Virus record (IMG/VR): IMGVR_UViG_3300036820_000010
Location: 20,581-84,580 of that record
Reading direction: 5' to 3' (one strand)
DNA length: 64,000 bases
Origin: a virus
The notes beneath the pieces are model-generated. The model saw nothing but the letters and a program-made list of their open reading frames with translations, searched no databases and was not told the origin of the DNA. Position numbers and translations under genes: made by a program. This document shows positions 18,083 through 64,000 of this stretch, piece after piece. Position 1 is the stretch's first letter, and each line of letters begins with the position of its first letter.

Positions 18083-18351
18083 TCAGGCAAGGCCTCGGGT
18101 GTGATGTACTCTTGGGGAAGCGTATCTTCTAAGGGTTTCAGGTCCTCTGTGAGATTGGAAACTTTCCCCTGAACCTCACCCATACCCTTGCCCAGACTAA
18201 ACAGAAAGGCAGAGAAACTCCTCAACCCCCTAGTGATCTCTTCTCCCAACTCTTGGCCTGACTGGAAAGCAGGATCGACCACTTCGACAACCAGGGGTGG
18301 GTCTAGTCGGTCAGCAAGATTGCGCAAGACCCCACCTAGTTTATGCCTCAC
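18058..18351 (-). CDS. Hypothetical protein between queC and mazG-like gene
   Basis: 97 residues from a GTG at 18351 that overlaps the QueC stop (GTGA). Sequence begins MRHKLGGVLRNLADRLDPP and is mostly helical with an amphipathic middle (SGQELGEEITRGLRSFSAFL). No family recognised. Its coupling to queC places it in the 7-deazaguanine operon. Confidence 0.5.
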   Translation of the reverse strand: MRHKLGGVLRNLADRLDPPLVVEVVDPAFQSGQELGEEITRGLRSFSAFLFSLGKGMGEVQGKVSNLTEDLKPLEDTLPQEYITPEALPEWRTPWRL

Positions 18352-19052: not shown

Positions 19053-19246
19053 AGATAAGTTTGTTCTCCCGCCTTGTAACGAACTGCGTCGATCGCGTCC
19101 ATGACTCGGTCAATCGGTTCAGTCCAGAGTGTACTGAGTTCGCCTAGAGTCATCTTCTTCTCGTCATCGGACATAGACTCTACAGTTTCCATGAGTCTCT
19201 GGAAAGGCATACTGCGTAGAGTACGTCTAGAGTCCTCAAGCATCAC
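19049..19246 (-). CDS. Small protein between folE and queC
   Basis: 65 residues, helical and acidic (MPFQRLMETVESMSDDEKK), overlapping both neighbours by 4 nt. No family recognised. Tight coupling supports expression with the deazaguanine genes. Confidence 0.5.
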   Translation of the reverse strand: MMLEDSRRTLRSMPFQRLMETVESMSDDEKKMTLGELSTLWTEPIDRVMDAIDAVRYKAGEQTYL

Positions 19247-19812
19247 CTAGATCCCCTCAACGCTAAGAACTCAGCACGGGCCTCAGGTTCCCTAAGAAAG
19301 TCCCCCCTGACCGCAGAAGTCACTGTCCTAGACCCTGTCGCCTGGATCCCCCTGATGGTCATGCACGCGTGTTCTGCTTCGAGGACGACCATGCAATTTT
19401 TACTTAGGTTCTCCTCGATGCAGTTAGCAACCTGGGTCGTGATTCTTTCCTGCATGGTCAACCGTCTAGAGTAAATATAGACGATGCGAGCCAGTTTCGA
19501 CAACCCGATGACCCGACCTTGGGGAATGTACCCGACATGAGCAACTCCCAAGAAAGGCAGTAAGTGATGTTCACACAAGGAGACTAGAGGAATGTCCTTG
19601 ACCAGGACCATCGAATTGTAGCCATCAGCCTCGAAGTGAGTGAACAGGTCTTTGGGGTTTAGAGAATACCCTCGAGTCATCTCCTGGTACATCTCGATGA
19701 CGCGGCGAGGCGTCTCCTTCAGGCCTTCCCGCGTCGGGTCCTCCTTGATGTACTTGAGGATATCCTCGACAGCACGCAGACCCCCGGGATGAACTTCCCT
19801 ACCCGACACCAT
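19243..19812 (-). CDS. folE: GTP cyclohydrolase I (FolE)
   Basis: 189 residues, normal family length. Converts GTP to dihydroneopterin triphosphate, the first step toward preQ0. Diagnostic motifs: DPTREGLKETPRRV, zinc ligands in SLCEHHLLPFLGVAHVGYIP, GLSKLARIVYIYSRRLTMQE and AEHACMTIRGIQATGS. It overlaps the DUF3310 gene by 14 nt and the downstream small gene by 4 nt. Confidence 0.96.
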   Translation of the reverse strand: MVSGREVHPGGLRAVEDILKYIKEDPTREGLKETPRRVIEMYQEMTRGYSLNPKDLFTHFEADGYNSMVLVKDIPLVSLCEHHLLPFLGVAHVGYIPQGRVIGLSKLARIVYIYSRRLTMQERITTQVANCIEENLSKNCMVVLEAEHACMTIRGIQATGSRTVTSAVRGDFLREPEARAEFLALRGSR

Positions 19813-20338
19813 CTTCCTCCCGGTGAATCAGGAACCGCAGGTACCAGAGGGCCTTCTTCAAGTCGTCAACTCCCCCCTTCTTCGACCAACGGGTGACGTA
19901 CTTGACGATGTTGCCTTCCGCGTAAGGCAGGTTGTTGGCCGCTATATACTGAATGGGCTCGATCTCGAACCCGCCTCGGTAGTGCCCACCCTGGTGCGAT
20001 GTCGAGAAGAGTTCAGTCCCCTGCTCCTGACGCAAGGCCTCGAGTTTCTCAGGATTGAGTTCTTCTGGGATCTCGTCATCAGGTAGATCCTGCCTTGCCC
20101 CTGGGTCCCCGGGAATCTTGATCTCACTCAGATCCCTACCTAGAGACTCCAGAACATCTTCATCTGCCTCGGGTTCTGGTCCAGGATAAAAATCAGATTC
20201 TGGGGGAGACGGGTTACGGTTAGCCATTTCAGCAACTATCGAGTTTTGGGGAGTGACGACCATCTTCGATCCCCCGACATTAGACTCAGTTGACTCTGCC
20301 TTGGGTTTCTTGTCGTCAGATGTATTTGTCTTGCTCAC
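19799..20338 (-). CDS. DUF3310 domain protein
   Basis: 179 residues. A long acidic, disordered N-terminus (~1-110) precedes a C-terminal DUF3310 domain: HYRGGFEIEPIQYIAANNLP, then GNIVKYVTRWSKKGGVDDLK and KALWYLRFLIHREE. The domain is frequent in phages and often called nucleotide kinase-like, without proven activity. The extended acidic N-terminus is unusual. Located between QueE and FolE. Confidence 0.8.
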   Translation of the reverse strand: MSKTNTSDDKKPKAESTESNVGGSKMVVTPQNSIVAEMANRNPSPPESDFYPGPEPEADEDVLESLGRDLSEIKIPGDPGARQDLPDDEIPEELNPEKLEALRQEQGTELFSTSHQGGHYRGGFEIEPIQYIAANNLPYAEGNIVKYVTRWSKKGGVDDLKKALWYLRFLIHREEDGVG

Positions 20339-20624
20339 TCAAGTCCACCAGTAGATAGTCGTGGATCAGGACGTGGTTCTGGGCCCAAGAATTCTTCTTG
20401 GCTACCTCGCAGACCCTTTGGTGTACTGCTTGGTAGTTCGCCCAGTCGTCAAAAGTCAGATTACCTTTGGTCAAAGCCCAGACTCGAAGAGACTCCATGT
20501 GGCGAAACCCGAGTTTCCGTAGATCTACGCGCAGGCGATTCCATCCACTTCTTTCAGTGTTCAAGCCCATGCCTCGGGCTTCCTTCTCGTACTCCTTCTC
20601 GTTGAGTTCTCGGAAGAACTCCAT
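20316..20624 (-). CDS. Hypothetical protein
   Basis: 102 residues from the ATG at 20624. A TTG at 20687 would extend it into the queE 3' end with a basic low-complexity segment and is less likely. The protein is charged, with a Trp-rich middle (LRVWALTKGNLTFDDWANY). It overlaps the DUF3310 gene by 23 nt. No family recognised. Confidence 0.5.
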   Translation of the reverse strand: MEFFRELNEKEYEKEARGMGLNTERSGWNRLRVDLRKLGFRHMESLRVWALTKGNLTFDDWANYQAVHQRVCEVAKKNSWAQNHVLIHDYLLVDLSEQDKYI

Positions 20625-20655
20625 ACTTGGCTGTTTCTCCACCCTACGCCGCCTC

Positions 20656-21375
20656 CTACGTTCCCCTCGTGTTTCCAAAGATCTCAACCTGCAGACGGGG
20701 GGATAGGTTCCACCCTTCTAAGAGAACCGACTTCGCTACTGCCTGCATATGCTCTTGTAAGGCCTCGACATCGATACCTTCTGGCATGATGTAGACAGGG
20801 TGAAGATCATGCTTGGTCACCAGGTACTTGACCTCGGCCAGATCATCATCAGAAGTGACCACGAACTTCCAACAGGTCTTGTGAGTATCCTGCAGAATAT
20901 CCAAGGCCTCGGGATTGTAACGCTTCGCCTTCTCGTTGCCTGAGTTCTCGAGTTTCGGAGAGCAGTTGAACTGGGTCACCCGCGTGACCAACTCCCGGGT
21001 CGGAGTGATCGTACCTGCTGTCTCGACCTCGACTCGAACCGCAGAAGACAGGGTGTTGAGGTACTCAGCCAAGACCTTCTGCTGCAGGAGAGGCTCACCC
21101 CCAGAGACGACCAACATAGGCACCCTCAAGTTGAAGAGGCCCAAGGTCTTGAACTGAGCAGTGATCTCCTCGAAGGTCATCCGGGTGAGTTCGACCTTAG
21201 GATCGTACTTGACCCCGTTACGTCCTGTCCAGTCCCATGTATAAGGAGTATCACACCAGGAACAGTGCAAGTTGCATGCCCCTAACCTCAAGAAGCAGCA
21301 AACTCTACCTGCGGACGAGCCTTCACCTTGGAAGGTAGGCCCGAACTGTTCACTGACCAAGAGTTCCTCCCTCAT
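20656..21375 (-). CDS. queE: QueE, 7-carboxy-7-deazaguanine synthase
   Basis: 239-residue radical SAM enzyme making 7-carboxy-7-deazaguanine from 6-carboxytetrahydropterin. The Cx3Cx2C cluster motif is in GACNLHCSWCDTPYTWDW; the N-terminal GPTFQGEGSSAG and the SGGEPLLQ motif are typical. Later SAM/substrate segments (EVETAGTITP, CSPKLENSG, YIMPEG) are intact. Only 3 nt separate it from queD upstream. Confidence 0.95.
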   Translation of the reverse strand: MREELLVSEQFGPTFQGEGSSAGRVCCFLRLGACNLHCSWCDTPYTWDWTGRNGVKYDPKVELTRMTFEEITAQFKTLGLFNLRVPMLVVSGGEPLLQQKVLAEYLNTLSSAVRVEVETAGTITPTRELVTRVTQFNCSPKLENSGNEKAKRYNPEALDILQDTHKTCWKFVVTSDDDLAEVKYLVTKHDLHPVYIMPEGIDVEALQEHMQAVAKSVLLEGWNLSPRLQVEIFGNTRGT

Positions 21376-52123: not shown

Positions 52124-54838
52124 TCAGGCAGATCCTAAGAGTGTCGGACGCTTCTTCTGGGTGACCGTGAAGCAGCGTGACAAGGCCATGATAGCCGCAA
52201 CCACTCCGTCGATCTTATCTCCTGCCTTGAGCTTAGAAGGTTTGACGTTGCCCGCAGGATCGAGTTCGACAGCGAAGTTGTCGACCATCCAGCGCATGCA
52301 CCCGTTGGGCAGGTGCTTGTACATGAGTTTACCAGATTCTGCCAAGAGTAGAAGTCTCTGCAACTCCTTGGTCGGAGGAGACATGCTCGGAAATCCCTGG
52401 CGCACTTCGGTCATGTTGAAGGCCTCATCCTGCAACTCAGATGAGATCTGAGTAGCGTTCCAGGGGTCGAAAGCGATCTCTTGGATCTGGAAGTTCCTAG
52501 CATCCAACTCGAGTTGCTTCTTGATGTAAGTGTAGTCAGTGACGTTGCCAGGAGTCAACTGCAACCAGCCTTGTTGCACCCAGAAAGCGGCACTTCCTGC
52601 TGTTCGTCGGTTGAGTGCAGTTAAAGACTCACTTGGAGCGAAGACCCTAAAGATGCTGACGTGGGAAGAATCTTCCTGGGGAAAATCTAGGCAGTAGGCA
52701 CTGAGGTCTGTTGTCGAGGCAAGGTCCATCCCGCAGTAGCACTTCTGCCCCTTTAAGGATTCTTCTTGCATCTCGACCTCACCCATGTCCCAGTGGGAGA
52801 CACTCAAGTAACGAGTATCCTGGCGGGTCCTGATGTTGAGGTGCAAGCGCAAGAAAGACGCTAACTGGGCAGGGGATTGCTGGGCCTCACGTGCTGCCTG
52901 CTGCATGAAGCGACGGTTAGGTGAGATCCCGTAACCAGGATTGGCCTTCTTCCAGGTCTCCTCGGAAAAAGGATCGTCTGTCGGGAGTGCTGCCCAGATG
53001 ACTCCGTAAGTTCCCTGGTCCTTGATCGCCCCCCTCGCTAACTGCTCTATTCTTTCTCTCCGTTGAGCATAGATCGTCGTCGTACGCGAGTCATCGGCGG
53101 TCGTGATCGTCAGAGACAGAGGTTGTGCCCTCGAGCCCATACCAGTCTCGAGTGCTTCGACCAGAGCACCTGACTTGTGGACGTGGAGTTCGTCGATGAT
53201 CGTCCCATGCACGTTGGCCCCGTGCAGGACGTCAGCCAGAGAAGACACTGCAGCGAAGTAAGACCCGGTCGGCTTGTGGATAACCTTCTCGGTAGTGACC
53301 GAGACGTATGGCGAGAGATCAGGGGATTTCTTAGCGATTTGTTGAACAGGCTGGAAGCAGTACCTAGCCTGTTCCTTCCCGGTAGCCGCAGCGTAGACCT
53401 GAGCCCCTTCTTCTCCGTCTGCCGTGGTCAGATAGCAGGCGATGCCTCCCGCGAGAGTAGTGTTGTGGGTCGGGACTAGACCTTCTCCTGCTAGATAGCA
53501 GTGAGACGGGTGGGCGACTTGAATGCAGCACATCAGACGAGGTTCGACTTCTTCGATCGAAGTTACCTGGTTGGTCGAAGATCGAGTTGGCCTGACAGGC
53601 CTTGGTTCTAGGAGGCAGGCTTTTCTTCTCAACCTGAAAGGGGAAAAGTCTGACCAAGCAGTAAAGGAAACCAGATACACAGGCCCACAGTCTTTTCCGT
53701 TCAGGGTTGCCCTGTCTTCTCTAAAGGTAGGTTTGAACCCTAAAGACCTAGCCAAGAACAGTACTCCCTCGGCCAAATTCCTTCTGGTGTTCGAGAATTC
53801 ACAGCGGGACAGGTTAGGAGAACATCCTGCATATCCGTCAGTGTCCATCAGACCTCGCAGGAGTTCAAGACGTTGGGCCTTTGAACCCAAGAGGTACTGT
53901 CCTGGAATTGACTTGTTACTCAGGACTCCTATCTGTCTGAGTTTCTTTTGCAGGCCCAAGTAGGTTCTAGTTATACCTGAGTTAGAAACTGCTCCAAGAG
54001 AAAATCCTGCTTCTAGTAAAGAATCATGGATGTCTTCATCGGCATTGGTTACCCCTCCTCCCTCGGAAGTCCCATCCCCCAACCAAACTCCCAGGATGTA
54101 AGGGTCTAGAAGAAGGTCTTGGGCCTTACGTTCTAGGGGTCTTGGGACCTCTACACAGTATCTCCTCTCGACCCCAGACCAGGGATGCAGAAGATAATCC
54201 CTGGACATTTCTTCAGTAGTCCTGACTAACCACCGATTGCGGTAGCGATCATGGACCCACCACTGATGCTCTTCTCCAGCAATAACTTCTTGACCCGCAG
54301 AAAATCTTATCCGGTACGCCTTCTTGAACTCAGGCGTAGAGACGTAAGTTATTTGAGTCAAAGGCCCATCTGGGGAATGGACAGAATCTCCTACTCTCAA
54401 GGCCCCCATTGTCGACCATCCCTTAGAAGTCAACATGGGAGTATCTACAGAAAGTTCCTTCCCGTTTTTTCGGGGCACTTCAACGTGAACTTTGCGGATT
54501 ACCCGGCATACCGCCTTGGTGTCAGGATCGACCAGGACCCACCCGAAGACAGGAGCGATCACATAGGCGATCTCCCAGGGGTCAGGTTTCAGGACTCTAC
54601 CTGCCCAGATGCCTTGGGTATGGCGAAGTTTGGAGAAGACTGACAGGACTCGGTCAACTCGAGAGGCGTCGAAGAAGACTCCTCGACCCGAAGGTTCTGG
54701 GGTCTTGAACAGGGGAGGGCACTTAGGAAAAGGTATGTGCCTTGACTTGAGGTACCACTTGACTTCTTCCGACAGACGGGGATCCTGTAGGTTGAGTACT
54801 CTCGCTGTCTTGGGTTTGGCCTTGACTTGAGGGGCCAC
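52124..54838 (-). CDS. terL: Terminase large subunit interrupted by an intein
   Basis: 904-residue precursor. The exteins form an HK97-type terminase: Walker A is split, with VPRKNGK before and TTLAGG after the intein, Walker B GTIIDELHVHKSG, and RNase H-type nuclease acids in YCGMDLASTTDL, EIAFDPWNATQI and KIDGVVAA. Removing residues 128-459 leaves ~572 residues, a normal TerL size. It would cut and translocate phage DNA into the prohead. Start at 54838 (MAPQVKAKPK). The small terminase gene lies upstream, separated by one small head gene. Confidence 0.93.
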   Translation of the reverse strand: MAPQVKAKPKTARVLNLQDPRLSEEVKWYLKSRHIPFPKCPPLFKTPEPSGRGVFFDASRVDRVLSVFSKLRHTQGIWAGRVLKPDPWEIAYVIAPVFGWVLVDPDTKAVCRVIRKVHVEVPRKNGKELSVDTPMLTSKGWSTMGALRVGDSVHSPDGPLTQITYVSTPEFKKAYRIRFSAGQEVIAGEEHQWWVHDRYRNRWLVRTTEEMSRDYLLHPWSGVERRYCVEVPRPLERKAQDLLLDPYILGVWLGDGTSEGGGVTNADEDIHDSLLEAGFSLGAVSNSGITRTYLGLQKKLRQIGVLSNKSIPGQYLLGSKAQRLELLRGLMDTDGYAGCSPNLSRCEFSNTRRNLAEGVLFLARSLGFKPTFREDRATLNGKDCGPVYLVSFTAWSDFSPFRLRRKACLLEPRPVRPTRSSTNQVTSIEEVEPRLMCCIQVAHPSHCYLAGEGLVPTHNTTLAGGIACYLTTADGEEGAQVYAAATGKEQARYCFQPVQQIAKKSPDLSPYVSVTTEKVIHKPTGSYFAAVSSLADVLHGANVHGTIIDELHVHKSGALVEALETGMGSRAQPLSLTITTADDSRTTTIYAQRRERIEQLARGAIKDQGTYGVIWAALPTDDPFSEETWKKANPGYGISPNRRFMQQAAREAQQSPAQLASFLRLHLNIRTRQDTRYLSVSHWDMGEVEMQEESLKGQKCYCGMDLASTTDLSAYCLDFPQEDSSHVSIFRVFAPSESLTALNRRTAGSAAFWVQQGWLQLTPGNVTDYTYIKKQLELDARNFQIQEIAFDPWNATQISSELQDEAFNMTEVRQGFPSMSPPTKELQRLLLLAESGKLMYKHLPNGCMRWMVDNFAVELDPAGNVKPSKLKAGDKIDGVVAAIMALSRCFTVTQKKRPTLLGSA
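53462..54457 (-). other. Class 3-like LAGLIDADG intein inside TerL Walker A
   Basis: Residues 128-459 of the precursor. N-terminal splice region ELSVDTPMLTSKGW begins with Glu instead of Cys/Ser; block B HQWWVHD has Trp193; block F RLMCCIQVAHPSHCYLAGEG has Cys438; block G GLVPTHN has Thr457, followed by Asn459 and +1 Thr460. The Trp/Cys/Thr set with a non-nucleophilic residue 1 is the signature of class 3 inteins. Two LAGLIDADG motifs, LLLDPYILGVWLGDGT and ELLRGLMDTDGYA, show a homing endonuclease. Confidence 0.85.
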
Positions 54839-54861
54839 TTTGGGTTCTTGGGTACCCCTAT

Positions 54862-55140
54862 CTAGGCCAGGAGCATCAACCAGGAGACATCAGCAGAAGT
54901 GGATTCTACTATCCCGTACAAGTCGTGAGGACTATCTCCAACTGAAGGAACACTCAAGACAGACCCAGCCGCAAGGGATAGACCTTGGTCTTCTCCGGTA
55001 GTTGAAACTGAAGGTCCACCTAGGAACACGGCTACTGATCCGTTGTTCTGGATGAGTACTCCGTCATTCTCTTCTGGAACAGTACAGATGAGGGTAGGAG
55101 AAGTATCTACTGAAGTTGTTCCGTTACTGTAAGTGCTCAT
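54862..55140 (-). CDS. Small head or decoration-like structural protein
   Basis: 92 residues. The core GVLIQNNGSVAVFLGGPSVS followed by GLSLAAGSVLSVP and DLYGIVESTSADVSWLMLLA matches a small beta-rich virion protein frequently seen in phages (decoration or spike type). Lies between the terminase subunits. Confidence 0.6.
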   Translation of the reverse strand: MSTYSNGTTSVDTSPTLICTVPEENDGVLIQNNGSVAVFLGGPSVSTTGEDQGLSLAAGSVLSVPSVGDSPHDLYGIVESTSADVSWLMLLA

Positions 55141-55181
55141 CTTAACAGTTCCTTAGATCCCTTTACCTTGAGGCTTGGGGT

Positions 55182-55709
55182 CTACTTGGTTCCGGCCTTG
55201 GCTCCTGGCGAGAAGGGGTTCTCTTCCTTGGATGGGTCAGGAGACGCTGGAACCTTGACTCGAGGTTCAGACGCTGGGGTCAACCCGAACTCATTCGCCC
55301 ACCACCGGTAGTGGGAGTCGGCAGTCTCTAGGTTGAGGAGTGCTGGGTTCTTGACATCCGCCCCGAAGCGATTCTTGGTTATTTGGCCTTCTACCTTGAT
55401 TATCTCTTCACACTCGCGGTAGCGCGACCAGGACTCGCACAGGATGACCAACCCAGCAAGATTGTGTTCGGCGAGGATGTTGAGGCGAGCCATCTCTGGA
55501 ACCAAAATATCCCAGTGTTTCGAGGCCTCAGGGGACAGGTAGTCTGGCTTTTCAGGTGCGAAGCGGGAGTAGGGAAGATCAGGTTTGACGATCGGTTCCC
55601 AAGTTCGGTCGTCGTGGATCCCGTCCGAGGATTCTAGCAACTTGAGGGAAGTAGTCTTGAGTCTCGGACCTTGCCCAGCTGGGGCCTTGGTTACTCCCTT
55701 AGCGCTCAT
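55182..55709 (-). CDS. terS: Terminase small subunit, P27-like
   Basis: 175 residues from ATG 55709 (MSAKGVTKAPAGQGPRLK). The central part (YLSPEASKHWDILVPEMARL; WSRYRECEEIIKVEGQITKN; TADSHYRWWANEFGLTPASE) is the P27/terminase_4 small-subunit pattern that recognises the packaging site. It sits upstream of terL, separated by the small head gene. A TAGAAT box lies 7 nt before the ATG. Confidence 0.82.
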   Translation of the reverse strand: MSAKGVTKAPAGQGPRLKTTSLKLLESSDGIHDDRTWEPIVKPDLPYSRFAPEKPDYLSPEASKHWDILVPEMARLNILAEHNLAGLVILCESWSRYRECEEIIKVEGQITKNRFGADVKNPALLNLETADSHYRWWANEFGLTPASEPRVKVPASPDPSKEENPFSPGAKAGTK

Positions 55710-55773
55710 ATATAGGATTCTACATGAGGAGAGGACGAGCACTGTGCCCGCCCTCCCTTGGACAAGGAATTGT

Positions 55774-55995
55774 CTACTCGACGAGGTGGTCGAACTGGCC
55801 CCTCTTGGCTGCGGCTAGGAACGCCCCAAACTCGCCTTTCGTCGAGAAGATCGAGTCGGGCGAGAAGGTCTGGTTGCGGATCTCGATCGGCATGGAAGGA
55901 TCCCCGGTCGGAGAAATCTCCATGCAGTTGTTGAAACCTCCTGACTCGTCTGCCTTTTCCCATGGACGCCCAGTTTCAGGGTCTACCTTGAACAT
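55774..55995 (-). CDS. DUF397-like protein
   Basis: 73 residues from ATG 55995 (MFKVDPETGRPWEKADESGG). Matches the DUF397 layout: W-x-K-S-x-x-S-G, a Cys in NNCMEISPTG, IEIRNQTFSPDSI and GEFGAFLAAAKRGQFDHLVE at the end. The family is common in actinomycetes, where it is paired with XRE regulators. Unusual in a phage; may mimic or block a host pair. Confidence 0.7.
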   Translation of the reverse strand: MFKVDPETGRPWEKADESGGFNNCMEISPTGDPSMPIEIRNQTFSPDSIFSTKGEFGAFLAAAKRGQFDHLVE

Positions 55996-56180
55996 GACAA
56001 CTCCTCTGCTGGTACCCCAGCATAAACTTCTTGAACCCTGTCCCTCAACTGGCGCAGAAGAGTTTCTGCTTCTTCTAGGGGCAGGACAACACATCGACTA
56101 TCTTTTGCTCCCCTCCGGTTGACGACCGTCAGGGAGTTTCTTGGGATCTCGACTTCTACGGTTTTTCCGGGCACGTTCAC
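55983..56180 (-). CDS. Small hypothetical protein
   Basis: 65 residues from a GTG at 56180. Beta N-terminus (TVEVEIPRNSLTVVNRRG) and helix (LPLEEAETLLRQLRDRVQEV). Overlaps the DUF397 gene by 13 nt and the gene upstream by 83 nt, so its start or the neighbour's end is uncertain. Confidence 0.4.
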   Translation of the reverse strand: MNVPGKTVEVEIPRNSLTVVNRRGAKDSRCVVLPLEEAETLLRQLRDRVQEVYAGVPAEELSCSR

Positions 56181-56370
56181 GCCTCCTACTCAGTTCCGTC
56201 TGGCGGAGTAGGCCTTCCTGAATTAAAAAGCGAGTAGCGTTAGCGAAGTGCTGGACATGAACCTCATGCATGAAGGCGTACACCTGATCTTGCGTACCCT
56301 CGTCGATGTAGACCCTCGCTTGTGGCAGTTTCTGGTCCGTGTCCTTCTCGACAAAGGTCTGACTAGCCAC
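56098..56370 (-). CDS. Small basic protein, possible RHH-like
   Basis: 90 residues. Helical middle (DQVYAFMHEVHVQHFANATR) and very basic C-terminus (RRRERARKNRRSRDPKKLPD). Overlaps the downstream gene by 83 nt, which is unusually long for this genome, so one of the two may be shorter in reality. Confidence 0.4.
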   Translation of the reverse strand: MASQTFVEKDTDQKLPQARVYIDEGTQDQVYAFMHEVHVQHFANATRFLIQEGLLRQTELSRRRERARKNRRSRDPKKLPDGRQPEGSKR

Positions 56371-56503
56371 GACTCAGTTTGTCCTCCTTTCTGTAACGAG
56401 TTGCTGTGATGCAGTCACAGTCACAGTCACCCCCACATGAGAGGTGATCTCCTTGCACACAGGACCCGCACTCAGATGTGTACTGGATATTGTCTATGGT
56501 CAC
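56363..56503 (-). CDS. 46-residue Cys-rich protein
   Basis: GTG 56503 overlaps the upstream TGA (GTGA). Product MTIDNIQYTSECGSCVQGDH then LSCGGDCDCDC: seven closely spaced Cys, likely metal-binding. Function unknown. Confidence 0.45.
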   Translation of the reverse strand: MTIDNIQYTSECGSCVQGDHLSCGGDCDCDCITATRYRKEDKLSRG

Positions 56504-56706
56504 TGGCGAGGCAGGATTCTGCCTTTGAGAATGGGAACTGTGTTTACTGGAACTGCCTTTTGCACGAGAATGCATATCTCAGTCCTCGCTGGGTTCTGGA
56601 AGGACGCGGACATTTGCCAACCCTCAGAAGCAAGTTGATTCAACTGGGTGAGAAGGGTCTCGTCCGTGAGATCCTCCCACTCCCCCTTGATCTGTTGGTA
56701 TTCCAT
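56500..56706 (-). CDS. DUF4177-like small protein
   Basis: 68 residues from ATG 56706 (MEYQQIKGEWEDLTDETLLT). The layout of a strand, helix (LNQLASEGWQMSASF) and final strand (EICILVQKAVPV) fits DUF4177-type proteins. First gene after a strong leftward promoter. Confidence 0.5.
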   Translation of the reverse strand: MEYQQIKGEWEDLTDETLLTQLNQLASEGWQMSASFQNPARTEICILVQKAVPVNTVPILKGRILPRQ

Positions 56707-56737
56707 CCTGAATTGGACAGGTTGCATTTGACCGATA

Positions 56738-56766
56738 AGTATAGACACATGCGTGAGGGATGTCAA
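56738..56766 (-). promoter_or_regulatory. Strong leftward promoter
   Basis: TTGACA, 17-nt spacer, TATACT on the minus strand, about 30 nt before ATG 56706. It starts the leftward unit ending in terS/terL or at least its first genes. Confidence 0.75.
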
Positions 56767-56992
56767 AGGGACTCCCGGATTTGAGTTGATTTTCCCTTAG
56801 TTTAGTAGAGAATCTGCCTGTTGACAGTGATAATTACTGTGAATGTAAGTTTACCAGAGGTCAACTCACAGCCCACAGAGACCCTCCACAGTATTTTCCA
56901 CAGTCGCTTCAGTGGCCAGAAAGTTACTGTTCCAAGCCGGGGCCTAGAGAGTCGGGGCGCCAACGCCCGGAGCCAAACTGCAGCCACTTCTT

Positions 56993-57027
56993 CCGCCACC
57001 CCGGGGTGGGCCACCCTTGGTTTTTCC
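56993..57027 (+). terminator. Hairpin followed by T-run
   Basis: CACCCCGGGGTG palindrome and GGGT/ACCC hairpin followed by TTGGTTTTTCC on the plus strand. It stands between the leftward promoter and the repeats at 57033. Confidence 0.45.
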
Positions 57028-57032
57028 ATAGT

Positions 57033-57310
57033 ACCTTATGACTGTTAAGCACATGGAATGCTTAACAGTCATAAGGTCATAGGACTTAACAGTCATAAGG
57101 CCTCATCCTGTTCAGGTATAAGAAGGCAAGGTGAGGAGGGTTAACTCAAGGCGCCTGCCTGCCTTGTCCTCGCGCTCGCCTCATCCTTATGACCTCAGGC
57201 GCCTCGTCCTTATCCTGCCTGCCTCGTCTTTGTTAAACACATGACTTCATTTAAGTTATACCTAGGCACTCCTCATCCTTATCCCAACGATGACTACGAA
57301 CCTTATCCCA
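57033..57310. repeat. Iteron-like repeats, candidate replication or regulatory site
   Basis: An 18-bp perfect inverted repeat (57033-57050 with 57060-57077; core CTTAACAGTCATAAGG) is followed by a third direct copy (57085-57100). Downstream are related short motifs: CTCATCCTTATGACC (57180), CTCGTCCTTATCC (57203), CTCATCCTTATCC (57272) and AACCTTATCC (57299), separated by GCCTGCCT-rich spacers. No gene lies between 56767 and 57426. Confidence 0.5.
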
Positions 57311-57390
57311 GTCCCCATCAGGCACAGGCCTGACATCATACCCACAGTCAAGGCGCCAACAAGACAAGGCATATTTCTACCCTAGACCCC

Positions 57391-57419
57391 TTGACATCTA
57401 GGTGCCAATTGTCTATGAT
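57391..57419 (+). promoter_or_regulatory. Leaderless-type promoter of the HNH gene
   Basis: TTGACA (57391-57396), 17 nt, TATGAT (57414-57419), then 7 nt to ATG 57427. The transcription start would fall on or next to the ATG. Confidence 0.75.
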
Positions 57420-57426
57420 TATAGAT

Positions 57427-57717
57427 ATGGGAACGTTGCGCGCAGGAGGCGAGAAGCGAGGCAACTCGCGTGATCGTCGCAACCGCAAGGTGTGGATGCT
57501 GCGCACATGGGACAATGACCTGGGTGTCGAGGCATGCCGTTGCGTGCATTGCGCACGAATCGGCAGAGAGACGATCCTCGACATCAAGGGTGTCGAGGCA
57601 GATCGCATCGTCCCCGGAGCGTCCTATGCCCATGACAACGTGCAACCGTCCTGTCGATCGTGCAACCTCGCCCGATCGAACAACATCGCCTGGGCACCGC
57701 AAGGCGCCTTCGCCTAG
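57427..57717 (+). CDS. HNH endonuclease (leaderless early gene)
   Basis: 96 residues beginning MGTLRAGGEKRGNSRDRRNR. HNH-type motifs: CRCVHCARIG, GVEADRIVPGASYAHDNVQP and SCRSCNLARSNN. Longer reading upstream would overlap the promoter and is rejected. First gene of a rightward early unit. Confidence 0.8.
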   Translation: MGTLRAGGEKRGNSRDRRNRKVWMLRTWDNDLGVEACRCVHCARIGRETILDIKGVEADRIVPGASYAHDNVQPSCRSCNLARSNNIAWAPQGAFA

Positions 57718-57733
57718 AGGAGTTCAATCGACA

Positions 57734-57928
57734 ATGTCCCGTGTCAACGTCAAGGTCTACCTAGGTAGGTCGCCTCACGTTCGCAACCTGCAGGATGTCG
57801 AGGCAAAGGTCGCCCGCCTAATGCGCCAGGCAGAGAACGACCGCCTGTCGTTGTGGGTCAACTTGGACCTGCCCGACGACGACGAACTCAACGAGCAGCG
57901 GGAGCTGCACGACCTAGGGGTGCTGTGA
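57734..57928 (+). CDS. Small early protein
   Basis: 64 residues from ATG 57734, AGGAG about 12 nt upstream. Begins MSRVNVKVYLGRSPHVRNLQ and ends in an acidic helix. Stop overlaps the next ATG by one base. Confidence 0.5.
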   Translation: MSRVNVKVYLGRSPHVRNLQDVEAKVARLMRQAENDRLSLWVNLDLPDDDELNEQRELHDLGVL

Positions 57929-58152
57929 TGCGAGATCTCAGCGACCTCAATCAGGAGCGCTTCGAACAGGGGTTCGAGCGCCTCCTCGTCCTGTATCGCA
58001 ACTGGAAGAAGGCGGAGGAGGTCGTCCCTCAGAATGCGCATCGTGAGGTAGGCGCCTACAACAGGTTCATGTCCGCCCTCGACATGTTCACGATCATGTC
58101 GGGCGAGGTCTCGGCGACGACGATGTCCTACCTAGAGGACGAGGTGTCCTGA
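57928..58152 (+). CDS. Small early helical protein
   Basis: 74 residues from ATG 57928 (TGATG overlap). Helical (NQERFEQGFERLLVLYRNWK), C-terminal Met-rich part. Function unknown. Confidence 0.5.
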   Translation: MRDLSDLNQERFEQGFERLLVLYRNWKKAEEVVPQNAHREVGAYNRFMSALDMFTIMSGEVSATTMSYLEDEVS

Positions 58153-58445
58153 TGCTCGTGCCCAAGGTCGTCCCGTCCGATGGTGTCGAGGAGGCGTTCG
58201 CTATGTCGCGTGTTTCGCGTTTCGCGTTTCGTGTTTTCACGGTCGTGACGTTCGTCCCTATGGGCGCCCTCTTAGTCCTAGGGGCAGGCATGGTCACGGG
58301 TGTCGCGCGCGTCGATCGCGTGTCGGAGCAGGTCGTGGGTGTGTCCGCGGGGCAGTTCGATGCCTCTCGTAGTGTCGAGGAGCACTATTGCTCCCTCGAC
58401 GTGATGTCAGGTCGTGTCATCGTGTCGTGTCAGGAGGCGAACTGA
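58152..58445 (+). CDS. Early single-pass membrane protein
   Basis: 97 residues, ATG sharing a base with the upstream stop. One helix (FAFRVFTVVTFVPMGALLVL) then an extracellular-like tail with two Cys (HYCSLDVMSG; IVSCQEAN). Possible inner-membrane inhibitor of superinfection or host function; inference. Confidence 0.5.
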   Translation: MLVPKVVPSDGVEEAFAMSRVSRFAFRVFTVVTFVPMGALLVLGAGMVTGVARVDRVSEQVVGVSAGQFDASRSVEEHYCSLDVMSGRVIVSCQEAN

Positions 58446-58609
58446 TGAACAAGGCAGAGCAGAAGGCGAAGGTGATCGAGGCACGTCGCCTCCTGAACCA
58501 CGCCATGGATCACGTAACGATGGGTAATCACGAACAGGCATTCTCCCTGTTCGAGGAGGCCCAGGGAATCGTGTTCGACCTCAAGGAGGCGAACCTGACG
58601 CCCGTCTGA
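58445..58609 (+). CDS. 54-residue helical early protein
   Basis: ATG 58445 overlaps the upstream TGA. TPR-like pair of helices (ARRLLNHAMDHVTMGNHEQA; FSLFEEAQGIVFDLKEANL). Last gene before a strong terminator. Confidence 0.5.
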   Translation: MNKAEQKAKVIEARRLLNHAMDHVTMGNHEQAFSLFEEAQGIVFDLKEANLTPV

Positions 58610-58628
58610 CTGCACTCGATCACAGTTG

Positions 58629-58664
58629 CGCCCGTTTGTCAACCCTGGCAAACGGGCGTTCGTT
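58629..58664 (+). terminator. Strong intrinsic terminator
   Basis: CGCCCGTTTG/CAAACGGGCG, 10 bp with 10-nt loop, followed by TTCGTTTTAT. Ends the early unit starting at 57427. Confidence 0.85.
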
Positions 58665-58813
58665 TTATATCAGGAGTGTAGACACGCTGTGACGCGAGCA
58701 GCCGGTCGCTGCGCGATCGAGGTCGTCACCCCAATAACTCACACGGGCAAACTCTTTTATCGTCGCAGAATCGAGATTTTGCTGTAAACGTTTGCAGGGA
58801 TCTCGTTAGGCGT

Positions 58814-58832
58814 GCGAACTAGATTAGTTCGC
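58814..58832. promoter_or_regulatory. Inverted repeat upstream of the RepA-like gene
   Basis: GCGAACTA GAT TAGTTCGC, perfect 8-bp arms, ~64 nt upstream of a TATAAT box (58896-58901). A candidate operator. The rest of 58665-58943 shows no gene. Confidence 0.4.
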
Positions 58833-58895
58833 GTGACTAACATCGGTTTTTCCCCAGGTCCTGATATTCGATGCGCACGCTCCCGGTCGATCGTC

Positions 58896-58901
58896 TATAA
58901 T
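58896..58901 (+). promoter_or_regulatory. -10 box of the RepA-like gene
   Basis: TATAAT, 42 nt before the ATG at 58944; the AGGAGG ribosome site lies between. The -35 is weak. Confidence 0.5.
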
Positions 58902-58943
58902 CATTGTAATGACCTACGGGAACCTACACACAGGAGGCAACGC

Positions 58944-60023
58944 ATGCCCTCGATCATGACTGGCGTCGAACTCTCGCAAGCCGAGGTGGGCGTTCGCGAA
59001 TTCGTCGTCAAGGACCTAGTCCCCAAGGGGTCACTGACCCTGGTCGCGGCTCGCAAGGGGCGAGGCAAGAGCGTGTTCACCTTGTCCCTCGCCCATCACG
59101 TCACGACCGGCAGGCCTTTCCTGGGTCGTCCTGTCACCCAGGGGCAATGGCTGTACGTCGGGACCGAGGACGACTCGATCGAGTTGAAGGGTCGTTACAA
59201 GCGCCTGTGCGACACCTTGGGCGACGACGCATCGCCCGACATCGACTTGGGCACCCAGTGGGCGAAGCAGTCAGAAGGCGGGATCGACGAATTGCGACGT
59301 TGGGTCGCAGGGTGCGACAACCCCCAGGGGATCACGATCGACTTGGCTGTCGGGGTGACGCCTGAACTCCTGGTCGTGCGTCGGGGGTGGGCGGCGATCG
59401 CGACGTTGATGAAGGAGTGGATCGACCTAGCGCGCCAAGAGAACATCGCCATCATTCTGGTCCTGCACATGAATCGAGGCAAGGACAACTCGAGTGACCC
59501 GATCGGGGACGTGCAGGGATCAGGAGCGGTCACGGCTTACGCCCAGACGCTCCTAGTCATCCAGGGGTCGAACCTAGGCAGCGAACGTTCGTTGTTCGTC
59601 GCGGGCAAGTTCGGGAACTCGATGACCCCGATCACGATCGACGGGGCGTCGATGACGGTCGAACTGCGCGACACGTCATCGGTCGATGACGAGGCGATGT
59701 CGAAGGAGCGCTCTCGCCTGATCACCCTGATCGCCCAGAACCCAGGGTTGAAGGCACGTGAGCTCGCCCGCAAGTGTCGTGATCGTCAAGTCGAGGCGAC
59801 GTGTCGCCTGCTGCAGATGATGGGCGACGACCATCAGGTCGACGTGCGCGAGCGCAGATATTACCCTCACATCGTCGATGTCAACGACCTCGAGGCGGGA
59901 CACGAGGTGTTCGTCCTGGGCAACGATGGGAAGGCGGTCAAGGCAGTCGTCTCCCAGGCATCCCTCCTCGACGCGCCCACCCCTCGCCTGGTTGTCGAGG
60001 AGCACGAGAAGGGGGTCGCCTGA
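58944..60023 (+). CDS. RepA-like RecA-fold ATPase (AAA_25)
   Basis: 359 residues from ATG 58944 with AGGAGG upstream. Walker A TLVAARKGRGKSVFTLSLA; GQWLYVGTEDDSIELKGRYK for the Glu/Asp motif; Walker B region AIILVLHMNRGKDNSSDPIG; DVQGSGAVTAYAQTLLVI. C-terminal ~100 residues contain a winged-helix-like part (LIAQNPGLKARELARK). Such proteins are hexameric helicases or RepA-type replication proteins; close to the iteron-like region it could act at the origin. Second ATPase of this kind besides the primase-helicase. Confidence 0.78.
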   Translation: MPSIMTGVELSQAEVGVREFVVKDLVPKGSLTLVAARKGRGKSVFTLSLAHHVTTGRPFLGRPVTQGQWLYVGTEDDSIELKGRYKRLCDTLGDDASPDIDLGTQWAKQSEGGIDELRRWVAGCDNPQGITIDLAVGVTPELLVVRRGWAAIATLMKEWIDLARQENIAIILVLHMNRGKDNSSDPIGDVQGSGAVTAYAQTLLVIQGSNLGSERSLFVAGKFGNSMTPITIDGASMTVELRDTSSVDDEAMSKERSRLITLIAQNPGLKARELARKCRDRQVEATCRLLQMMGDDHQVDVRERRYYPHIVDVNDLEAGHEVFVLGNDGKAVKAVVSQASLLDAPTPRLVVEEHEKGVA

Positions 60024-60072
60024 CCCTCGAACGAACGTACGCGGGCGACAGGAAAAATTCCTGTCGTCCGCC

Positions 60073-60101
60073 TTGACATTTCCTGTCGAATCGTCTATAT
60101 T
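60073..60101 (+). promoter_or_regulatory. Repeated leaderless promoter, copy 1
   Basis: TTGACA-17-TATATT then TATTGC and ATGGGAACA. Identical over the whole -35 to start region to copies at 60480 and 61148. Confidence 0.8.
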
Positions 60102-60107
60102 TATTGC

Positions 60108-60260
60108 ATGGGAACAATGCCACTCGCGTCGATCATCACCTACGCCTTCCTGTGGGCGATCCCTGCCTCGTTCGTAGGCATGGTCGCCTTCACCATCGTC
60201 GCCCGCGTGCGAACTCAGGTCCAAGTCAAGCGACCCGCACGCCGTAGGAGGACCTTCTGA
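60108..60260 (+). CDS. 50-residue early membrane peptide
   Basis: ATG 60108 is 7 nt from the -10 box, so leaderless. Product begins MGTMPLASIITYAFLWAIPA, one hydrophobic helix, then a basic tail (KRPARRRRTF). Stop shares a base with the next ATG. Confidence 0.6.
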   Translation: MGTMPLASIITYAFLWAIPASFVGMVAFTIVARVRTQVQVKRPARRRRTF

Positions 60261-60460
60261 TGCACACAACCGACCTCTCGATCGTTTGTTCGTACATCGC
60301 GCGTACGATCTCGGCCTGCGAAGTCGACGAGGTGCTAGGCGACGGGACCGCGCGCGCGATCGATGAGGCGATAATGATCCTAGACCTCGACACTCAGCAT
60401 GGCAGGATAGTCGATGTCGCGCGCGTCGTGTTCGACGAACTCGACATGTTCGAATCCTGA
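60260..60460 (+). CDS. Small early protein
   Basis: 66 residues, ATG in TGATG overlap after AGGAGG. Helical, acidic (DVARVVFDELDMFES). Function unknown. Confidence 0.5.
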   Translation: MHTTDLSIVCSYIARTISACEVDEVLGDGTARAIDEAIMILDLDTQHGRIVDVARVVFDELDMFES

Positions 60461-60479
60461 AGATTCCTACATTCTCCTG

Positions 60480-60508
60480 TTGACATTTCCTGTCGAATCG
60501 TCTATATT
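60480..60508 (+). promoter_or_regulatory. Repeated leaderless promoter, copy 2
   Basis: TTGACA (60480-60485), 17 nt, TATATT (60503-60508), TATTGC, ATG 60515. Same sequence as copies 1 and 3. Confidence 0.8.
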
Positions 60509-60514
60509 TATTGC

Positions 60515-61060
60515 ATGGGAACACGATACCCGATCACTGCGAAGTACGCCTCGACTTGCCCCTCCTGCAACGGGGCGATCGAGGTAGGCGACAGGGTCCT
60601 GTGGGCGCGAGGCGAGAAGGCGACGCACGTCGTCTGCCCCAAGAGCACGTCGTGGGTCACGCAGCAGCAGGCACCGGTCGCGCGCATCGCGCCCGAGGCC
60701 CAAGGCGTCTACGTCATCGAGGGGGACGACGAGTCACAGATCGTCAAGGTGCAGGCGACGCGTGACGGTCAGCGCACCTACGCGATGCGTTGGGAGGATC
60801 GCAACGCCGCCCGCCTGATGGGGAACGGCGAACACGCGCACGGCGAATGGGTGTACGAACCTGGCTTGGTCACCGTCGTCGCCCGTGAGGGACACAAGAT
60901 GACCCTCGACGAGGCGAGGGCGTTCATCGTTCTCTACGGGCAGTGTGTGCGCTGTGGGCGTCACCTGAAGGCGGCCGAGAGCGTCGAACGCGGGATCGGT
61001 CCCGTCTGCGTCAAGTACTTCGAGGCAGGAACGACCGGGGCGAGCGTGATCGCCGCCTGA
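60515..61060 (+). CDS. Two-zinc-finger early protein, DUF6011-like C-terminus
   Basis: 181 residues beginning MGTRYPITAKYASTCPSCNG. N-terminal C-x2-C (CPSCNGAIEVG... VVCPKS) and a C-terminal CVRCGRHLKAAESVERGIGP-VC motif typical of DUF6011. Probably DNA- or protein-binding. Leaderless start 7 nt from the -10 box; ends at a perfect terminator. Confidence 0.7.
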   Translation: MGTRYPITAKYASTCPSCNGAIEVGDRVLWARGEKATHVVCPKSTSWVTQQQAPVARIAPEAQGVYVIEGDDESQIVKVQATRDGQRTYAMRWEDRNAARLMGNGEHAHGEWVYEPGLVTVVAREGHKMTLDEARAFIVLYGQCVRCGRHLKAAESVERGIGPVCVKYFEAGTTGASVIAA

Positions 61061-61076
61061 CGATTCGTTCGCAAGG

Positions 61077-61112
61077 GGGGTCGTGCGCGATGCGCACGAC
61101 CCCTTCTTCGTG
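61077..61112 (+). terminator. Strong intrinsic terminator
   Basis: GGGGTCGTGCGC/GCGCACGACCCC, 12 bp with GAT loop, followed by TTCTTCGTG. Confidence 0.85.
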
Positions 61113-61147
61113 GGCTACATCCTTACGAAGATTTTACAAGTTCCCTG

Positions 61148-61176
61148 TTGACATTTCCTGTCGAATCGTCTATATT
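61148..61176 (+). promoter_or_regulatory. Repeated leaderless promoter, copy 3
   Basis: TTGACA, 17 nt, TATATT, TATTGC, ATG 61183. Confidence 0.8.
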
Positions 61177-61182
61177 TATTGC

Positions 61183-61530
61183 ATGGGAACAACCAACGAC
61201 ACGACGAAGACCTTCGACCCCGCCTCGTTCTCGATCGACGCGATGTGGGCAGTCGTCAAGCCACTGCAGGAAACAGACGAGAAGAGGGCAGAGGTGCTCT
61301 GGCGGGTCATGGAGGGGATCGCCAACGCGACCCAGAACGCGCGCCAGGCGACCCGTCGCCTGCGTCAATCCTGCGACGACCTCGACGCTTCCATCGATTC
61401 AATCTGGTCGCATGAAGTCGCCCTGGCCTCAGTCGACCTAGAGAAGGCGCTCGCGACGAGAAGCGTCCTCCTCCCGATCCTGATCAACCTCCTAGGCAAG
61501 GCCGAGGTCACCCGCCTTCTCGGAACTTAG
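61183..61530 (+). CDS. Early helical protein
   Basis: 115 residues beginning MGTTNDTTKTFDPASFSIDA, helical throughout (RAEVLWRVMEGIANATQNAR; SIWSHEVALASVDLEKALAT). Leaderless start; monocistronic between a promoter and terminator. No family recognised. Confidence 0.6.
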   Translation: MGTTNDTTKTFDPASFSIDAMWAVVKPLQETDEKRAEVLWRVMEGIANATQNARQATRRLRQSCDDLDASIDSIWSHEVALASVDLEKALATRSVLLPILINLLGKAEVTRLLGT

Positions 61531-61551
61531 ACGCGACGAATCAGTCGTCGA

Positions 61552-61590
61552 GGCGACCCCCACATCTAAGGGGTCGCCTTCTTCGTGTTT
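61552..61590 (+). terminator. Strong intrinsic terminator
   Basis: GGCGACCCC/GGGGTCGCC, 9 bp with 9-nt loop, followed by TTCTTCGTGTTTC. A CTCGACACC/GGTGTCGAG hairpin lies just downstream (61592-61619). The remaining 200 nt before the next promoter hold no gene. Confidence 0.85.
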
Positions 61591-61828
61591 CTCGACACCT
61601 ATCCCGATGGGTGTCGAGGGTGTCTAGGCCTACCCCTTGTTCTGCGCGCACAGGTCGACGCTCTGACACGGAACTGCGCACCCCGCACAGGTTGATGGAG
61701 TACGAGAGAGCGCGTCGGAGCGTCGAAGACACGACGCGGAGAGACGGGCGTAGCGACGCGAAATCGCATACCCTTAGTGGGTACACCCCCGTAAGAGAGA
61801 TTGCGGCTGCTCGCGTCGAAATTTCCTG

Positions 61829-61858
61829 TTGACATTTCCCGGGGTGATGTGCGATACT
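61829..61858 (+). promoter_or_regulatory. Leaderless promoter, variant
   Basis: TTGACA, 18 nt, GATACT, ATAAAT, then ATG 61865. Diverged spacer but same geometry as the other early promoters. Confidence 0.7.
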
Positions 61859-61864
61859 ATAAAT

Positions 61865-62170
61865 ATGGGAATCGACAAGTCGCGGATGACTCAAGACGCC
61901 GCCTACGTGATCGACCTCGATCGTCGATCGATGTTGGTCCTTTTAGACGACACGGTCAACGAGGTCCTAGCCGAGAACTTCGACCTGAGCATGCGAGAGG
62001 TGATCATGCGCGTACGCAAACTCGACGAGGAAGGCCTAGAGGAAATGGTCACCTCAGGTTCGATCACGCGCGACGAATGCGAGACGGCGATGCGCCCGAC
62101 CGACGAGGATATTCGATCGTCGATCGCGAACTATCGCGCGATGTTCAACCTGATATCGCGCAACTTCTGA
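61865..62170 (+). CDS. Early helical protein
   Basis: 101 residues beginning MGIDKSRMTQDAAYVIDLDR, acidic and helical. Leaderless start and its own terminator. No family recognised. Confidence 0.6.
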   Translation: MGIDKSRMTQDAAYVIDLDRRSMLVLLDDTVNEVLAENFDLSMREVIMRVRKLDEEGLEEMVTSGSITRDECETAMRPTDEDIRSSIANYRAMFNLISRNF

Positions 62171-62185
62171 CAATCCCCTGTTCCC

Positions 62186-62224
62186 TGCGACGGGCGCGCA
62201 ACGTGCGCGTCCCGTCGCATTTTT
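62186..62224 (+). terminator. Strong intrinsic terminator
   Basis: TGCGACGGG/CCCGTCGCA with inner CGCGCA/TGCGCG, followed by TTTTT. Confidence 0.9.
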
Positions 62225-62309
62225 GCATAAGGAAGGACAGGCACCTGCAATGCCCGTCCCATCGTCGTGATATGACACACCCCCGTTGCAGGCGGGAGTT
62301 GAGGGTCGT

Positions 62310-62549
62310 CTAAGCGGTCGTGCCCATGGACACGTCGCCCATGATGTTGGGGTCGACGACGATGTCGAGATGCGCGACGTTGACGCGCACGAACGCCTCG
62401 ATCCCGTGATCCTTGATCGAGGAGTCGTCCTCGTCGGTCGCGAGGTAGGTGGCGAACTCGTGTCGCGCGTCGGCGGCGTTGCGCGCCCGCACGATCGACA
62501 CGTAGGTCCCGTCCCCGTCCGGGGTGACAACGATGTATGCGTTTCCCAT
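62310..62549 (-). CDS. Early small protein on the minus strand
   Basis: 79 residues beginning MGNAYIVVTPDGDGTYVSIV, a beta-alpha mix with an acidic loop (TDEDDSSIKDHG). Its ATG is 7 nt from a TATAAT box, i.e. a leaderless start in reverse orientation to the other early genes. Confidence 0.6.
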   Translation of the reverse strand: MGNAYIVVTPDGDGTYVSIVRARNAADARHEFATYLATDEDDSSIKDHGIEAFVRVNVAHLDIVVDPNIMGDVSMGTTA

Positions 62550-62556
62550 TACTATG

Positions 62557-62585
62557 ATTATAGGGGGTCGGGGGCATCCTGTCAA
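62557..62585 (-). promoter_or_regulatory. Leaderless promoter, minus strand
   Basis: TTGACA, 17 nt, TATAAT, CATAGTA, ATGGGAA on the minus strand; both hexamers are full consensus. Confidence 0.85.
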
Positions 62586-64000
62586 CCCCGAATTTTCGTT
62601 CGTGCACGCGTGCGTGCGCACGTGTCGCTTGTCAACCGCGTTTTCGCGTTTCGTGTTTCGCGTTTCGTTTACAACATATCGCGATAGTGTCGGGAACCCC
62701 TAGGGGACCTCGACACCCATCTCTGCCCACGCAGACCCTGGGCGTCTCGCGTCACAGCCGGTCGCTGCGACACGAGAAGGCACGCCCCGATAGATTCGTC
62801 GGCCGAGAGATTCTCGCGTCGGAGATCGCGTCTCTCCGCGTCGAGGTGACCTGGTGAATTTCCAAGTTTCTTGGAATTCCCAAGGCCCTTGGATTTTCCA
62901 ACATTCTTGGAAATTCCAAGGGCCTTGGATTTTCCCCAGGGCGAACGCCCGTTCGGGTTTAAACCGAAAATCCGAACCGGGCTTACCAGGGGCTGCTCTC
63001 GGGGGCTTACCGTACCGGTTTTATATTATAATTATAATGTAATAGAAATTTTCAAAAACTGCAAAAATTTTTTTTTCAGGTTTTGGGTTTTTGCCTTGAC
63101 TCCCCTTGGATTTTGTCCAGGCAAAGCAAGACCTTGGTCTCTACTCCACCTTGCCTAGAAACGCAACATCTTGAGATTCGACCGAAGTAGTTTGACTTCT
63201 CCTCCGAGGTAAGACTCAACCCCCGCACTCATCCTGGGTCTCAAGACAGAGTCAGGGAACAAATTCAGTCAGTCTAGACTCCACCTGGATTTATTACGCG
63301 CACGCGCGCTTGAAACCAATCCCGACGTGATCTCCCGACGTGTCAAGGTTCCTGAGTTTTCCCAAAGGCAGGAGTCTGAGAACCTGAGTAAACCCCAAAT
63401 CTAGTCTCTACTCCAATGACTGACCCCGCAACCAGAGTTGCATCCCCTAGGGGAACTCAAGGCCTAGAAACTCAAAATCAAACGGGGAGAAAAGCCCCCC
63501 GGTATTTTTCAAGGGAGCGGGGCTACCCCGGGGGCCTAGGCAAACGGGGAGAAAACAGAGTGAGTGTGTTCTGAGTGTCGAGAAAACCCCCTGGGTCCTG
63601 TGATTATTGAAGTTCCCTCTCTGCCCAGGACTCTACCTTGAATCAAAACAGACCAGGGAAAAGACCGGACTTGTCGGGAGGGCATGGTGCGGGGTGTCGG
63701 GTAGGTGGGGAGTGGTAAGTCTTGTCGGTCAGTCCTGGCATGGACAGTCGGCTTGGTGAGGTGCGGCAAGGTTAGTCGGAAAGGATAGGTACGGCCAGGT
63801 TCGGTAAGTCGTTACGGTCTGGATAGTCTAGAAGGCAGGGTTCGGGTTGTCGGAGTGGGACGGCATGGTGTGTGCCGGATTGTCGGGACGGCATGGGCTG
63901 GAAGGGATTGTCGGTGAGGTATGGGCTGTCGGGGAGGGATGGATTGTCGGGGGGGGGGGGGGGGGGTACGGTGTGGTCCGGGTTTTAGGTAAGGTGTGGT
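62586..64000. other. Noncoding end region with palindromes, AT-rich tract and G-rich array
   Basis: About 1.4 kb without a credible gene. 62859-62935 has four short palindromes (CCAAG/CTTGG or CCAAGGCCCTTGG-type) in tandem. 63020-63095 is very AT-rich with TATATTATAATTATAATG and long A/T runs. 63480-63560 has two copies of AAACGGGGAGAAAA. 63660-64000 is G-rich with degenerate TTGTCGGG-GGCATGG repeats and an 18-G run at 63949-63966. The rest (63100-63470) looks like decayed or spacer sequence. Confidence 0.6.
62859..62935. repeat. Tandem palindromes
   Basis: CCAAGTTTCTTGG, CCAAGGCCCTTGG, CCAACATTCTTGG and CCAAGGGCCTTGG spaced 17-22 bp apart, linked by AATTCC- and ATTTTCC-like spacers. Spurious frames cross it. 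Confidence 0.55.

Follow-up and report, generated by a model that had tools for sequence, protein, structure and literature searches.

A class 3-type intein in the Walker A motif of a phage large terminase and a flanking footprint suggestive of homing

The DNA analyzed here, a 64-kb stretch that we refer to as the window, belongs to an uncultured phage in which an intein interrupts the DNA-packaging motor, and this raises the questions of which class of intein occupies the large terminase (TerL), whether it is intact, and how it came to be there. Our reading, to which we assign a probability of roughly 0.9, is that a class 3 intein of full length, with a seemingly intact LAGLIDADG endonuclease, sits in the TerL P-loop between GK and TT, is presumably removed by splicing, and probably homed into the gene together with a short piece of flanking DNA.

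The interrupted terminase gene

One open frame of 904 aa encodes TerL and the intein (Table 1). In profile searches the exteins matched both TerL_nuclease and TerL_ATPase, and the small-subunit gene adjoins terL just upstream, identifying the host gene as that of the large terminase subunit; the nearest named TerLs are those of the Gordonia phages Gudmit (54%) and Kita (52%). The original prediction had placed the intein at 53462-54457, which is exact, the codon of ORF residue E128 lying at 54455-54457 and that of N459 at 53462-53464, and the flanks VEVPRKNGK and TTLAGG show that it splits the Walker A motif between GK and TT. The LAGLIDADG domain that had been claimed was recovered with PF14528 (31.7 bits vs a cut-off of 22.5), D128 and D207 of its two motifs are present, and LAGLIDADG_3 had a single match in the whole 84.6-kb record. 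Third-position GC is lower in the intein (0.47) than in either extein (0.61 and 0.65) or in any of 14 other genes (0.52-0.72).

Elsewhere in the window, genes for QueC, GTP cyclohydrolase I, and a radical SAM protein are clustered at 18348-21375 and, as judged by their sequences, probably form a 7-deazaguanine pathway for DNA modification. The composition shifts at 57500-64000 (GC about 0.60 at 58-62 kb vs about 0.54 elsewhere), where many overlapping ORFs lie on both strands together with an AAA_25 ATPase (58812-60023) and a DUF6011 protein. No tRNA genes were found in the 64 kb of the window.

Table 1 Features of the terminase locus in window coordinates
Feature	Position	Strand	Basis or remark
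terL with intein	52124..54838	-	GTG start, 904 aa; TerL_nuclease (PF20441) 131.7 bits, TerL_ATPase (PF03354) 63.8 bits, PHROG 9
N-extein, residues 1-127	54458..54838	-	Last residues are the Walker A GK
Class 3-type intein, E1 to N332	53462..54457	-	332 aa; ORF residues 128-459
C-extein including stop	52124..53461	-	Thr+1 is the first residue, 53459-53461
Block B His64 (B:10), Gln65, Trp66 (B:12)	54260..54268	-	Alignment with 6bs8 and the 28-intein set
LAGLIDADG domain, ~residues 112-282	53612..54124	-	PF14528, PI-SceI profile match, fold; limits approximate
Endonuclease D128	54074-54076	-	LAGLIDADG motif
Endonuclease D207	53837-53839	-	LAGLIDADG motif
Block F Cys311 (F:4), putative first nucleophile	53525..53527	-	Kept in 28/28
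Block G Thr330-His331-Asn332	53462..53470	-	Kept in 28/28
Upstream tract, -1 to -43	54458..54500	-	Clustered silent differences to the empty allele
Downstream tract, +1 to +12	53450..53461	-	Clustered silent differences to the empty allele
Terminase small subunit gene	55182..55742	-	PHROG 83

Class 3 features of the intein

Class 3 inteins are described as having Trp B:12, Cys F:4, and Thr G:5 and as lacking an N-terminal nucleophile (PMC5222942, PMC5050341). All of these features were found: the triplet is W66, C311, and T330 (W193, C438, and T457 of the ORF, as predicted), and the intein starts with Glu rather than Cys or Ser, again as claimed. The supporting residues His B:10 (H64), His G:6 (H331), Asn G:7 (N332), and Thr+1 are also present. 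The Asp of block B (DxxH) that is present in M. smegmatis DnaBi1 is replaced by Gly61 at B:7 in the window; Asp is frequent here but not defining, and among the 28 inteins that we aligned eight have Asp and eight have Gly (the window and seven others).

This alignment comprised the window intein, 16 inteins from named phages, and 11 from IMG/VR, the latter taken from 14 loci of which three (L002, L012, and L013) were omitted as near-copies. H64, C311, T330, H331, and N332 are kept in 28/28 and W66 in 27/28, whereas residue 1 varies widely (A 11, L 7, G 3, E 2, D 2, S 1, R 1, and P 1); conservation of the signature across these sequences is not a matter of chance. The same pattern recurs in 80 related loci from bacterial and archaeal genomes, with W-C-T-H-N in 73 and W-C-T-C-N in two, the remaining five being without the Trp or unaligned there, and GK directly precedes the intein in 59 of the 80. 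Because this genome scan was seeded on the endonuclease motif, it says nothing independent about the presence of the endonuclease. The rarity implied by the original prediction did not hold up, as inteins with a WCT signature at the GK/T site are common in phage terminases. We found no closer intein in IMG/VR exceeding 41% identity (14 loci, from a search that may omit entries close to the window); an NCBIfam search returned nothing useful, and a TIGR01445 search did not reach the record of the window.

In a tree of the splicing domain, built on 141 retained columns from 60 rows and including 25 of the 80 genome loci, a branch with 100/99 support separates seven class 1 inteins from bacterial genomes from 53 class 3-type rows including the window. 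The window pairs, with support, with the intein in TerL of Rhodobacter phage RcKickapoo (97/92), and the six-row set to which it belongs (97/80) includes the Kostyavirus TerL intein, two actinobacterial MAG loci, and an intein in a Mycobacterium phage gene annotated as an HNH endonuclease, the host gene being described as RecB-like in PMC5050341. A TerL from a Pseudonocardiaceae MAG (L189) is 62% (N-extein) and 54% (C-extein) identical to that of the window and has an intein at PRKNGK/TTLA that is 45% identical to the window intein. In another locus (L270), a class 3-type intein end (CVEVDN...PTHN/S) is seemingly followed by a second candidate in one frame, an arrangement that we liken to the two-intein DnaB of M. 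smegmatis.

Structural comparisons are in agreement with these assignments. An AlphaFold2 model of the intein, generated from a 12-sequence alignment, is confident (mean pLDDT 90.7, pTM 0.89) and predicts a HINT plus endonuclease fold. In Foldseek searches it matched whole inteins with an endonuclease, PI-SceI among them (TMq about 0.75), as well as two class 3 inteins of DnaB, 6bs8 and 6rix (TMt up to 0.89). By sequence, the splicing domain was closest in the PDB to 6bs8, 6rix, and 6riy, and the gp41-1 intein ranked far lower. The DnaB inteins, M. smegmatis DnaBi1 (6bs8) and M. chimaera DnaB-1 (6rix), share the WCT triplet, a non-nucleophilic residue 1, and the HINT fold with the window intein but, unlike it, are mini-inteins without an endonuclease and reside in DnaB. 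PI-SceI has the same two-domain architecture but is larger and only about 15% identical. Splicing of PI-SceI is canonical (class 1).

Could the window intein nevertheless be a class 1 intein with a misread or mutated first residue? Residue 1 is the sole catalytic position that differs in kind from class 1, and the fold is common to both; yet the codon GAA would need at least three changes to encode Cys and at least two to encode Ser, none of the residues Trp B:12, Cys F:4, and Thr G:5 is missing, and the 100/99 branch sets the window apart from the seven class 1 inteins. We therefore regard this explanation as so improbable that it deserves almost no weight, and in the version that invokes a single sequencing error it is ruled out by the Glu codon being at least two changes away from Ser or Cys. 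Class 2 was set aside because Cys F:4 and the complete WCT triplet are present. Thus, the class 3-type reading of the original prediction is borne out by all defining sequence features, the tree, and the PDB sequence matches.

Class 3 splicing has been reported to involve two branched intermediates (PMC5222942) and a Cys-His-Thr triad (PMC7664689). By analogy with these relatives, we infer that the window intein also splices through a branched intermediate: Cys311, aided by His64 and Thr330, would attack the Lys127-Glu128 bond, giving a branched intermediate at block F; Thr+1 would then take over the N-extein, and cyclization of Asn332 would allow the exteins to join. Because the intein splits Walker A, packaging would depend on splicing and a functional packaging ATPase would exist only afterwards, a dependence that has been argued for TerL inteins in PMC5050341. 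We note that Cys310 adjoins the catalytic Cys311 (53525-53530) and that Cys320 (53498-53500) lies further on; these extra Cys residues occur in none of the 27 other aligned inteins. In the class 3 DnaB intein of M. smegmatis, a disulfide involving the catalytic Cys acts as a switch (PMC6195587), so that maturation of the terminase might conceivably be under redox control.

An empty sister allele and the flanks of the insertion

Searching IMG/VR with the C-extein, we kept 80 loci, and the GK/T-or-S junction is uninterrupted in 79 of them; the remaining locus (L075) begins inside the C-extein, so that the junction falls outside it. The single near-identical empty allele is the sister L032 (IMGVR_UViG_3300037258_000732), a 4361-bp fragment with 97.8-99.2% DNA identity to window positions 52262-57533, the last of these being where the sister contig ends. 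It lacks exactly the 996-bp intein, in frame, and the compared TerL codons differ from those of the window by 39 silent changes and one replacement (C-extein residue 279). Outside terL, this comparison also revealed ~81 extra bases in the sister (1667-1747) just upstream of the small-terminase start, missing in the window at 55707-55710, as well as short self-matching inverted stretches at 57033-57100, beyond the small-terminase gene, which from their sequence are perhaps hairpins near a packaging site.

The comparison bears on whether the intein is dead, i.e. part of a precursor that does not splice, or the product of a chimeric contig. The record is metagenomic and the intein is known from sequence alone, but the frame is open across 904 aa, every catalytic residue is kept, the extein differences are almost entirely silent, and both flanks match one sister contig; hence, we consider a dead or misassembled intein highly improbable.

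The differences between the two alleles are unevenly spread. Of 53 substitutions over 2452 bp round the junction, 14 fall within 55 bp, from -43 to +12, the next difference downstream being only at +168, and all 14 are silent. None of 20,000 permutations placed 14 substitutions in any 60 bp (maximum 10), and with third positions only the observed number was 13 vs a permutation maximum of 8. A silent-site hot spot at the P-loop was examined as the cause in pairs of intein-less alleles. A first control of seven pairs (0.5-8% divergence) gave 31 differences vs 21.3 expected, the same lean as the effect. In a wider control of 101 pairs (0.5-15%), which share loci and hence are not independent and from which pairs with any 100-bp stretch more than 45% mismatched (likely gaps) were excluded, we observed 619 vs 683.2 expected; the highest ratio was 2.88, compared to 14.2 for the window and its sister by the same measure. 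Because the 101 pairs gave no excess, the hot spot was rejected.

The simplest reading of this DNA pattern is homing with short co-conversion: the endonuclease would have cut an empty terL between GK and TT, and an allele with the intein would have served as donor in the repair, so that the intein was copied together with ~55 bp of donor flank. The direction is inferred, and the existence of a near-identical phage without the intein suggests that the intein moved recently. Alternatively, the intein may be old in this lineage, and recombination with an allele lacking it may have removed it from the sister and left the tract there. A tract of foreign silent changes looks alike from either side, base sharing with 76 relatives gave no clear polarity for the window vs the sister tract, and the related actinobacterial MAG TerL has an intein at the same site. 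Loss from the sister nevertheless appears unlikely to us, as the tract of the sister is a slightly better fit to the codon use of this phage than that of the window (log likelihood -20.8 vs -23.6), the third-position GC of the intein is low, and the other 78 judged TerL relatives from IMG/VR are empty.

Kostyavirus as a second system

The TerL intein of the Mycobacterium phage genus Kostyavirus (e.g. Paperbeatsrock gp10, L016) has the same GK/T site, WCT signature, and LAGLIDADG domain as the window intein and, like it, is present or absent between close relatives, although its residue 1 is Ala and not Glu. It is 48% identical to the window intein over residues 2-332, whereas the TerL exteins are only 28.6% identical; therefore, the two inteins resemble each other more than do the terminases that carry them. 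The Kostyavirus intein probably corresponds to the TerL1-a group of Kelley et al. (2016; PMC5050341).

Among the 60 Kostyavirus records listed of 144 matching an empty TerL, 26 align without a break and so have no insert, and in 34 an insert divides the match in two. We compared six empty and six intein-bearing alleles, hand-picked, with 72 variable columns in 1671. Four of the 72 columns separate empty from full alleles without exception, at -4, -1, +3, and +6, and only two of the 924 six-six splits, the true split and its mirror, reach four such columns. Because all four lie within 6 bp of the junction, intein presence tracks only the adjoining bases. Outgroups gave no clear polarity between empty and full alleles in the seven of 12 loci in which the site was found, one of which (L289) carries an intein. 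A further TerL intein, that of Mycobacterium phage mushipu (L285), measures 306 aa vs 331, with a 25-aa endonuclease deletion and MDTDG changed to MDTNG; going by these changes, the endonuclease seems to be decaying with the splicing residues retained.

The two clusters also permit a different explanation, in which the empty alleles changed and silent recoding of the endonuclease site confers resistance to homing, independently in the phage of the window and in Kostyavirus. Silent differences are centered on the insertion site in both, and an intein-less Kostyavirus relative (L297) has three of the four bases in common with the intein-bearing alleles. The differences in the window pair extend to -43, far from the site, however, and the codon-use comparison leans the opposite way. 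A codon-level arms race would fit the Kostyavirus alleles as well as co-conversion does and the window pair less well, and overall we consider it rather improbable that the P-loop clusters are resistance alleles. If they were, phages would evade an endonuclease that targets the protein motif they can change least, the escape being made in the codons while the amino acid sequence stays the same.

Co-conversion during homing, our preferred reading, can be set beside what is documented for other terminase inteins. P-loop inteins in terminases were already described in 2016 (PMC5050341), where TerL1-b, -c, and -e, TerL6-f, and Pham3880-g were found to splice and -b and -c to cut empty alleles; the GK/T group TerL1-a lies outside the inteins assayed there. 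The TerL1-b intein of BAKA (L183), which spliced and cut an empty allele there, resides, like the window intein, in a phage TerL and has WCT-type residues in its own sequence but is inserted one residue further on (PMC5050341). The flanks of the BAKA/Courthouse pair are 75% identical (PMC5050341), which by analogy is compatible with a similar footprint. Among the entries listed in searches of the open-access literature, we found no account of co-conversion at the inteins of phage terminases or of differences in their flanking DNA. We conclude that the window intein is one more member of a well-documented group and that the mobility footprint is what it adds. Its value lies in a matched pair of alleles, with and without the intein and near-identical outside the site, in which the length of the exchanged flank can be read base by base.
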